DNA of 37,231 nt from Rhodocyclaceae bacterium (GTDB lineage: Bacteria; Pseudomonadota; Gammaproteobacteria; Burkholderiales; Usitatibacteraceae), in contig JADCJC010000071.1 of NCBI GenBank assembly GCA_020247395.1, positions 1 to 37,231 on the forward strand, in the 5' to 3' direction. Of the stretch, positions 31,562-33,124 are shown in pieces. Made by a program: the position numbers and the translations under genes. The stretch's first letter is position 1, and each line of letters begins with the position of its first letter. The notes beneath the pieces are model-generated. The model made no database searches, was not told the origin of the DNA, and saw only the letters and a program-made list of their open reading frames with translations.

Positions 31562-31780
31562 CGGATCACGAGAGAGTTACAAAGTGTCAGGTTTTTCAAA
31601 TCGGTAGCAGGATAGTAGCCTCGCTTAGTCTGGTTCCAGCATGCGGGCTAAAGTCGGCTAGCGGGCGGTACGCAAAGTATGGTGTCGCATCCAGAAGCCG
31701 CAGCCCTCGCCATGTAAATTGCGTTGTTTTCCCGATGTGTACAGAATGACCAGATCATACCCATCATCTTCAAAAACGCC

Positions 31781-31990
31781 ATGCGAACCAATATCGATAT
31801 CGACGACACGCTCATGACCAAAGCCATGAAGGCGGGTGGCTTTACGACCAAGAAAGAAACGGTTGAGGAAGGCTTGCGCTTGCTGGCGGCGCGGGCCGCG
31901 ATTGCGGACATTCGTAAGCTGCGCGGCAAGATCAAGTGGATGGGGAGTCTCAACGAGATGCGGCAAGACCGTGTCAAGTACGCGAAATAA
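31781..31990 (+). CDS. vapB: VapB-type antitoxin
   Basis: 69 residues from ATG 31781; the upstream TTG frame adds nothing conserved. MRTNIDIDDTLMTKAMKAGG is the ribbon-helix-helix DNA-binding N terminus of the VapB (COG5450) group, followed by FTTKKETVEEGLRLLAAR and a short acidic/aromatic C tail (KWMGSLNEMRQDR) that would wrap the toxin. The antitoxin frame is intact. It overlaps no other gene and lies 27 bp before the disrupted vapC. With the toxin dead, its remaining role could be operator binding or nothing. Confidence 0.9.
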   Translation: MRTNIDIDDTLMTKAMKAGGFTTKKETVEEGLRLLAARAAIADIRKLRGKIKWMGSLNEMRQDRVKYAK

Positions 31991-32017
31991 CTTGGTCGCG
32001 ACTACCGAGTACCGCGA

Positions 32018-32602
32018 ATGATTCTTGTCGATACCAGCGTCTGGATCTCATGGTACTACCTTAAGAAAAATTCCCTCTTGTTGACAAACTAATTGGCGAA
32101 TTGAGCGGCAATACAGAAAGTGTCTCCCCGGCGAAGGCCGCGGCCCAAGTTCGCGCAGCTACTCGAAAAATCCAACTGGGTCCCGGCCTTCGCCGACATG
32201 ACATGCTTAAGGTAGTGCCATGAGCGTCTGGATCGATTGGCGAAACGGCCGCGCACATCCGGCTACCGATAGGCTCGATCAACTGCTCGATGAGCCAATC
32301 CAATTGGTATTATGCGATCGTGTAGTGCAGGAAATCGTACAAGGGATACGCGACGATAGGGACGCCCGCGAGGTCGAAAAAAGCTCGGAGTGTTTGATTG
32401 TCTCGACACCGGCGGACGCGAGCCAGCACTGGCAAGTGCGGCGCGTTATCGCCAACTGCGCAAACAAGGTGTCAACATTCGTAGCAGCAATGACGTGCTG
32501 ATTGCGGAGTTGTGTATCCAACACGGTATCGCGGTGCTGCACAATGATCGTGATTTTGATGTGATCGCCAAACACAGCAAGTTGAAGCTGGTGAAGTGGT
32601 AA
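32018..32602 (+). pseudogene. vapC: VapC toxin gene disrupted by a palindromic element and a frameshift
   Basis: The N terminus MILVDTSVWI (32018-32047) has the first PIN Asp in LVDTSVW. At 32048 a ~176-bp inverted-repeat element interrupts it. Past the element the frame resumes as SVWIDWRNGRAHPATDRLDQ, LLDEPIQLVLCDRVVQEI, then shifts at the A-run near 32377-32382 (one base short) and continues in another frame as FDCLDTGGREPALASAARY, NVRSSNDVLIAELCI and DRDFDVIAKH. Read across both defects it is a complete PIN ribonuclease of about 130 residues. As it stands no functional toxin can be made unless the element is removed and the shift suppressed. It follows the intact vapB. Confidence 0.88.
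32048..32223. mobile_element. Miniature inverted-repeat element (MITE-like) inserted in vapC
   Basis: Terminal inverted repeats: TCATGGTACTACCTTAAG (32048-32065) and CTTAAGGTAGTGCCATGA (32206-32223), 17 of 18 matching. The vapC bases AGCGTCTGGATC occur just before it (32036-32047) and again at its right edge (32223-32234), an 11-12 bp duplication of the target. Inside are two inward-facing hairpins with 4-nt loops (32126-32143 around GAAG; 32184-32195 around CTTC), each flanked by a CCCAAGTT / AACTGGG block. At about 176 bp with no coding capacity it is non-autonomous. I cannot assign the transposase family. The spacer holds no other recognisable feature. Confidence 0.85.
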
Positions 32603-32674
32603 GCGCGGGTGGGCAAAGCGTAGTGTGCCCACGCTACTAAACTCCGCAGTCTCTGCGACGACAGGCAAACCAGC

Positions 32675-33124
32675 ATGACAATTGAAGCAGTCTACCTTCC
32701 GCACAACGAACCGTATATCGGTAGGCCTCAGCTACTGGCTTTCGACAAGGCAATTCCTCCAGCGATGAGGTTAAACATTGCTGTGGCAGCGCGCACCTTT
32801 GCAGTAAAGATGTCGGATCAACAAGCGGTGGTTTCAGAAATCGTTCCCCAAGGGATTAGCGTCGCGTTGAGTGTCCGCGAGCTAATCCGCCAAGGCTACT
32901 TATTCTCCGCAACAATTCTTCTTCGCCCGCTGCTCGAAAGAACCGCAGTGGTTTTTTACCTGATAGACACCCCCGTCGCTGTTGACGCATGGCATAAAGG
33001 CTGGCCGAGGGGCGAGCAGCCCTCACTGCCGAAGTTAATTGAGCACCTCATGTTGCGAGCAGGTAACGAGGATACTTTGGGCGCGAGATTCCTACCCAAT
33101 CATGCGCCTAAAGACGCGGAATAA
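32675..33124 (+). CDS. Uncharacterised protein, probably C-terminally truncated
   Basis: 149 residues from ATG 32675. The middle, SVRELIRQGYLFSATILLRPLLERTAVVFYLI, is a helical hydrophobic segment that resembles the core of larger (about 250-300 residues) uncharacterised proteins of the DUF5677-like type. The frame stops after NHAPKDAE, in a short tail before the cupin gene, so the rest may have been lost. This is a suggestion from memory of the pattern, not a verified match. No neighbour explains its role. Confidence 0.6.
   Translation: MTIEAVYLPHNEPYIGRPQLLAFDKAIPPAMRLNIAVAARTFAVKMSDQQAVVSEIVPQGISVALSVRELIRQGYLFSATILLRPLLERTAVVFYLIDTPVAVDAWHKGWPRGEQPSLPKLIEHLMLRAGNEDTLGARFLPNHAPKDAE

Follow-up and report, generated by a model that had tools for sequence, protein, structure and literature searches.

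A probable IS4-type MITE carrying a CGTC-like palindrome dimer lies within a vapC toxin gene of a Rhodocyclaceae bacterium

The 37,231-nucleotide stretch of DNA analyzed here, referred to as the window, is contig JADCJC010000071.1 of the draft genome GCA_020247395.1 of a Rhodocyclaceae bacterium. It carries an uninterrupted vapB antitoxin gene (31781–31990, forward strand, 69 aa; Pfam VapB_antitoxin, 52.9 bits against a cut-off of 23.4) and, after it, a 5′ piece of vapC that comprises exactly 10 codons in the sequence (32018–32047, forward strand). A non-autonomous element of 176 bp adjoins this piece at 32048–32223 (forward strand) and is thus placed between codons 10 and 11 of vapC, as the original prediction had stated. 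The termini, recognized as sequence repeats and by an end-pattern scan, are inverted repeats of 18 bp that match at 17 of 18 positions (left, 32048–32065, forward strand; right, 32206–32223, reverse strand). The inverted arms at 32047–32065 and 32206–32224 are 95% complementary and the internal arms at 32129–32147 and 32177–32195 are 89% complementary, in agreement with the predicted 18-bp termini, length of about 176 bp and hairpins. On the forward strand, the outer part of the right end reads AAGG-N7-ATG-A. As single-stranded DNA, the insert folds more stably than its own shuffles (−41.5 kcal/mol, z −6.5), in part through its paired ends.

The direct repeat AGCGTCTGGATC stands on both sides of the insert, at 32036–32047 and 32223–32234, with 12 of 12 bases identical. 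All seven copies of the element in this genome that have a right end finish with ATGA, and the left ends, present at five of its eight places, read TCAT in four and CCAT in one; the A at 32223 is therefore part of the element. This assignment gives an element of 176 bp and a target duplication of 11 bp (32037–32047 and 32224–32234, forward strand), and the twelfth base of the direct repeat is a coincidence. Of the 11–12 bp duplication that had been proposed, the 11 bp are retained and the twelfth base is given up. Its length, which had been called unusual, lies within the 10–13 bp range that the subgroup description in PMC2266710 gives for the IS4 subgroup. We observed no transposase or other gene-like frame belonging to the element, either in the sequence or in the list of open frames, and a search of the window with Rfam at gathering scores yielded two tRNAs and nothing else. 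The definition of MITEs in PMC3733652 mentions 70–300 bp, inverted ends of 15–30 bp and a lack of coding capacity, and the element's size and ends agree with it.

In the start frame of vapC, the insertion yields a stop after codon 24. Further downstream, the PIN domain is divided between two frames of the forward strand. A 93-aa frame (32220–32501), which opens at an ATG in the end of the element and runs into vapC, contains the first part (NCBIfam VapC, 47.2 bits over model positions 6–72, cut-off 80; Pfam PIN, 17.2 bits, cut-off 23.6). The second part lies in a different frame (32360–32602; NCBIfam VapC, 77.9 bits over model positions 56–125, just under 80; Pfam PIN, 30.7 bits, cut-off 23.6). 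The two parts were searched apart, each being scored against the whole-protein cut-off of 80. With the insertion and the two frames, vapC holds no continuous PIN-domain frame; it carries two lesions, the second of which could be a sequencing or assembly error. Excision of the element together with one repeat copy had been said to restore the reading frame exactly, and this can hold next to the junction; downstream it does not, as the PIN-domain parts stand in different frames. The claim that insertion was proven to have broken the gene is not sustained either, given these different frames.

The two PIN-domain frames fit a history in which vapC decayed first by frame disruption and the MITE landed in a pseudogene, leaving toxin function unaffected by the insertion. 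We consider this a serious possibility that falls a little short of even chances: the order of the lesions is not readable from one genome, and the second disruption could stem from the same kind of sequencing or assembly error. Such a history concerns only the order of events and is compatible with the IS4-MITE explanation developed below.

Of the 27 other genomes of the family, three have a vapB relative (E ≤ 1e-8; 51–52% identity), and in all three the linked vapC frame passes through the site unbroken and has no insert; one of these proteins, in L158, reaches 160.8 bits with the VapC model. The comparison with relatives that had been proposed thus found no conserved vapC-plus-insert arrangement, all three of these distant genes being uninterrupted. 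Since the relatives are this distant, their genes are best taken as homologous uninterrupted genes and do not appear to represent the same locus before insertion.

Another reading takes the element for a regulatory module, providing translation restart or an RNA hairpin and kept at vapBC by selection. The right end does offer AAGG-N7-ATG on the forward strand, its ATG at 32220 opening the 93-aa frame into vapC, and the RNA fold of the element is strong (−77.2 kcal/mol, z −7.2 against shuffles), with the paired ends contributing to it. The restarted frame, however, lacks the start of VapC with the first conserved aspartate, a residue that has a catalytic role, and it departs from the VapC frame ahead of the second half. 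Moreover, a simple consensus scan of 31700–32700 found no promoter-like and no terminator-like sites, and of the 28 genomes searched, only that of the window combines the full-length element with a vapB match. We therefore rate selection for a regulatory role as very improbable.

In the genome of the window (3.9 Mb, 133 contigs), the element is found at eight near-identical places (97–100% identity over at least 135 bases), along with further partial matches that mostly fall within its palindromes. Allowing up to two mismatches, the end pattern has 13 matches in the genome, and the same pattern read backwards has none; together with the eight places, this shows that the element is not a product of chance. 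The genome-wide search that had been suggested has thus removed the objection that no other copies exist. Four of the eight are full-length (C103, which is the window, C133, C41 and C68), three are truncated where a contig ends (C14, C45 and C132), and the copy on C59 lacks the right end. The 11-bp duplication is perfect in two of the four full-length copies (C103 and C68), matches at 9 of 11 positions in C41 and at 5 of 11 in C133. The left flank of C133 equals the flank of the contig-end copy C132 (11 of 11), and the flanks of the contig-end copies C45 and C14 are reverse complements of each other (11 of 11). Each of these pairs probably represents the two sides of a single insertion, so the number of insertions may be smaller than eight, and C133 has probably been recombined or misassembled. 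A single end on C84 has no second end among the 13 end matches and no visible transposase-like frame. For the seven copies outside the window, no clear gene is interrupted (frames of at least 90 aa, assessed by eye; a frame that runs into the element on C41 and one that crosses it on C59 were judged to be non-genes), an observation that also favors the landing of the element in an already decayed vapC.

The neighborhoods of some copies deserve separate mention. Two others lie within approximately 150 bp of toxin-antitoxin-like genes, namely a PIN-domain frame (L002:1820–2278, reverse strand; Pfam, 57.2 bits) and a BrnA antitoxin (L008:158–442, reverse strand; 51.5 bits). Including vapC, 3 of the 8 places have such a neighborhood, as a raw count. 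The copy on C68 starts at most 20 bp from the end of an OmpH-like frame (L004:925–1500, 104.8 bits).

An autonomous relative with the same termini, which the original prediction had advised looking for, exists. Scanning contigs for the end sequence returned at least 80 stretches, many of them in Betaproteobacteria bacterium UKL13-2 (CP012157.1, here G010), a genome of the same genus. G010 contains a 1519-bp insertion sequence that shares these ends and is flanked by an 11-bp duplication; its single frame encodes a 464-aa transposase that matches the IS4 family (NCBIfam NF033592, 210.6 bits, cut-off 115) and the DDE_Tnp_1 domain (Pfam PF01609, 66.5 bits). The protein carries the YREK motif, YRKRWMIEVDFRSIK, and a D-78-D-105-E triad; in the part of De Palmenaer et al. 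2008 (PMC2266710) that defines the family, the limits are Y(2)R(3)E(6)K and D(60–110)D(100–150)E. The spacers of 78 and 105, the single open reading frame and a duplication of 11 bp, about one helix turn, all agree with this family. The IS231 subgroup was rejected: its ends, CAT-------AA--TAA, are not found here, as CAT and TAA do not occur in register together and AA is absent.

The transposase has 13 matches in G010, of which 9 are full-length. Among 28 genomes of the family, including that of the window, the end occurs with at most one mismatch in 9, a transposase match (E ≤ 1e-8) in 7 and MITE-like DNA (E ≤ 1e-8) in 4; outside the window's genome, full-length MITE-like DNA is found in G013 only (95%). 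Of the 41 listed spans that are bounded by such ends, with nested and composite spans included, 23 have an 11/11 duplication and 18 have no perfect one. The best 12 plasmid relatives among those listed are 38–47% identical. In L067 (968–2486), the transposase frame of the 1519-bp insertion sequence runs into the terminal repeat, and its stop codon consists of the three outermost bases of the element; in L071, L115 and L127 the frame ends 12–13 bases further in.

In the draft genome of the window, no intact transposase of this type was found. A remnant of 47 residues, 60% identical and with one stop, lies on C14 beside a copy of the MITE, and a second match on C30 is weak (E 0.05). The sole PF01609 frame of this genome (C91, 296 aa) lacks these ends and was dismissed as an autonomous copy; at this locus (L039) lies a further DDE transposase that may be divided between two frames, with the end-like sequence GGGAACTTCTAAAAACC, which recurs near other repeats (L004 and L017). 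In this genome, the MITE family seems to have survived the loss of its transposase, and since no intact transposase was found, present-day movement is doubtful, barring a copy that has escaped the draft assembly. Derivation of the element by simple internal deletion of an insertion sequence was also rejected, as its inside shows no similarity to four such sequences beyond the 18–21 terminal bases (word-7 blastn).

The insertion sites suggest a target preference. The 11-mer GGGTCAGACAC occurs 87 times in G010 against once for its backwards control, part of these occurrences being duplications made by the elements themselves; in the genome of the window it occurs once (control, 0). Many occurrences in the four G010 stretches that were read have no adjoining element. 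All three Y1_Tnp genes scanned in G010 stretches (237 aa) are flanked by GGGTCAGACAC, and their proteins score 75.1 bits with the REP-associated tyrosine transposase model, under its cut-off of 80. Twelve distinct target sites in relatives (10 perfect duplications and 2 with one mismatch, for which one side was taken) were used to build a strand-symmetric matrix, with rows below 10/11 and all sites of the window's own genome left out. On this matrix, the vapC site GCGTCTGGATC ranks in the top 0.15% of the 11-mers of the window, and the other six flanks from the same genome range from the top 0.003% to 0.7%, only some of them having a confirmed duplication. By these ranks, the vapC site is a reasonable target, though not an ideal one. 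Preference for REPs has an IS4-family precedent in ISRm22 of Sinorhizobium meliloti, as described in the portion of PMC1525189 on that element. As a separate observation, the G010 loci L171–L174 hold RAYT-associated repeats, REP-associated transposase genes, copies of the insertion sequence and MITEs that are nested or adjoining, and a gene with a CAP12/Pycsar TIR domain is found within these nests (L172:5217–6179).

Taken together, the ends shared with an autonomous 1519-bp insertion sequence and the eight places in the genome, with a perfect duplication at two of the four full-length copies and 9 of 11 positions at a third, identify the element very probably as a MITE that was mobilized in trans by a DDE transposase of the IS4 family. 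The prediction of a MITE-like element with its target duplication inside vapC is thus supported by the ends, the repeat, the further copies and the autonomous relative. From these sequence comparisons we infer that an IS4-type transposase moved it. After binding to the 18-bp ends, this enzyme would excise the element and insert it at a near-palindromic 11-bp site similar to GGGTCWGACMC, duplicating that site in the process. Such a transposase would have been present in this lineage and later lost, leaving the remnant, and the inside of the element would be a captured dimer of the CGTC-type REP palindromes of the genome.

The first palindrome unit of the element (32121–32147, forward strand, identified from the sequence as a member of a dispersed family) consists of a TGTC tag, 8-base arms, a 4-base loop and a CCA tail; a spacer that by eye resembles those of free dimers follows (32148–32176, forward strand), and then the second unit in inverted orientation (32177–32203, reverse strand). 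With the tags outside, the dimer has the HH layout of CGTC-1 REPs. The stems of the window copy contain mismatches and its left unit begins with TC, and the free dimer L010 begins with AT; the part of PMC3733652 that defines CGTC-1 REPs describes an AT start of the stem as “almost invariably” present. Because of the imperfect arms and the missing AT start in the left unit, we call the dimer CGTC-like rather than CGTC-1. A one-unit pattern with up to two mismatches has 54 matches in the genome (8 of them within the element), compared with 0 for the reversed pattern. Together, the hairpins thus make up a CGTC-like REP dimer whose family is dispersed in this genome, an identity that the original description of them did not include.

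Spacers of the four free dimers examined are similar by eye. The notion that free dimers are decayed MITEs is unsupported in all four: the best end-like match in each has 6, 6, 8 and 9 mismatches, respectively, and lies within the range of random stretches, for which the means are 7.6 to 8.1; the 6 mismatches of L010 equal the lowest value in its 100 random stretches. The tag-outside layout that the core shares with these free dimers, as well as the REP-associated tyrosine transposases of G010 (75.1 bits, under the 80-bit cut-off), could also suggest that a RAYT (IS200-like) enzyme moved the insert as an ordinary REP/BIME unit, its inverted ends being incidental. However, 11-bp duplications recur, with perfect ones at unrelated sites, and we know of no target duplications made by RAYT/IS200-type enzymes. 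The ends also equal those of a DDE insertion sequence, and none of the four free dimers has an end-like flank beyond the random range, which leaves movement by a RAYT enzyme extremely improbable.

Elements with the same ends in other genomes carry diverse cargo. Those of G010 contain a dimer related to the inside of the window element (z 8.3), and the L079 element contains a CGTC-type dimer without overall similarity to it (z 1.0). CCCTCC palindromes are the cargo in G009 and in a Gallionellales genome, and a GTGGGC palindrome is that of L051 (G020); L080 contains a long hairpin, and in L142 no palindrome is clear (fold z −0.67). Six of nine elements fold strongly on the inside (z between −3.5 and −8.0, with 30 background pieces ranging from −3.0 to 1.9), and folding is weak in L051 (−2.28), L124 (−1.17) and L142, so a palindrome cargo in every element was rejected.

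Dispersal of the cargo in the respective hosts is also uneven. The G009 palindrome has 20 matches in G009, 4 of them in elements, with some places counted on both strands, and it has none in the genome of the window and 1 in G010. Dispersal is weaker in the Gallionellales genome, which has 11 matches, 3 by position in elements and the other 8 at three mismatches. For L079, the 4 matches in its own genome do not establish dispersal, as the positions of the two exact ones place them within or next to such elements. In the L080 genome, 12 CGTC-type matches coexist with an element that contains a different hairpin, which disfavors a simple cargo rule. Among the loci examined, the L051 palindrome occurs at two places, L051 itself and the window region. 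In the latter, the palindrome GGTGGGCAAAGCGTAGTGTGCCCACG lies at 32609–32634, shortly after the last vapC stop, and is near-identical to the cargo carried in G020 by an 86-bp element whose ends are of the same kind (L051:1433–1518).

These cargoes allow a tentative proposal that we hold to be on balance doubtful: one IS4-family end may have repeatedly taken up the resident dispersed palindromes of different hosts and spread them as MITEs. The cases of uptake would be a CGTC-like palindrome here and, apparently separately, in L079, CCCTCC in G009 and the Gallionellales genome, and GTGGGC in G020. CGTC REPs, for which we know of no dedicated transposase, would thereby gain a cut-and-paste vehicle.

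Bacterial MITEs moved by IS enzymes are a known class that includes the IS231-derived cassettes. The element resembles members of this class, such as MITEAba12 (PMC6382973), in being short and non-coding, with the ends of an autonomous insertion sequence, a target duplication and several copies; unlike them, it encloses a REP-like palindrome dimer instead of insertion-sequence DNA. Its partner resembles the IS4 subgroup, as far as the subgroup section of PMC2266710 describes it, in its single-ORF DDE transposase with YREK, its length (1519 bp, within 1400–1650), its duplication (11 bp, within 10–13), a relaxed first terminal base and a target preference. Against the terminal consensus -AATR--------WTW, TCATGGCACTACCTTAAG fits 6 of 7 fixed positions and differs from the subgroup at position 2, where C stands in place of A. 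ISRm22 (PMC1525189, in the same portion) is likewise an IS4-family element with a strong preference for a palindromic repeat; in our case, unlike ISRm22, the preferred 11-mer is found in RAYT-associated repeats in G010, and the genome of the window, with one such 11-mer, uses looser matches.

A search of titles and abstract openings on MITEs, REPs, IS4 and vapC, with few subscription journals among the sources, found no description of this element or of CGTC dimers inside IS4 ends. The element appears to be a new MITE of a known IS4 kind with an unusual cargo. Insertion into one toxin gene is commonplace; the cargo bears on how palindromes may spread, and the interest lies in the pairing of IS4 ends with resident palindromes, which is seen in some lineages but not in all. 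The paper that defined the CGTC REPs, Di Nocera et al. 2013 (PMC3733652), reports only a few fortuitous associations of these repeats with transposase genes and leaves undecided whether RAYTs or other transposases move them. Our dimer shares with those REPs the TGTC/CGTC tag, 8-base arms, 4-base GAAG loop, CCA tail and HH arrangement, and differs from them in lying within IS4 ends, in its repeated insertion with target duplications and in its imperfect arms. With a CGTC-like dimer inside IS4 ends and several copies at duplicated targets, the question of how CGTC REPs move becomes directly testable.
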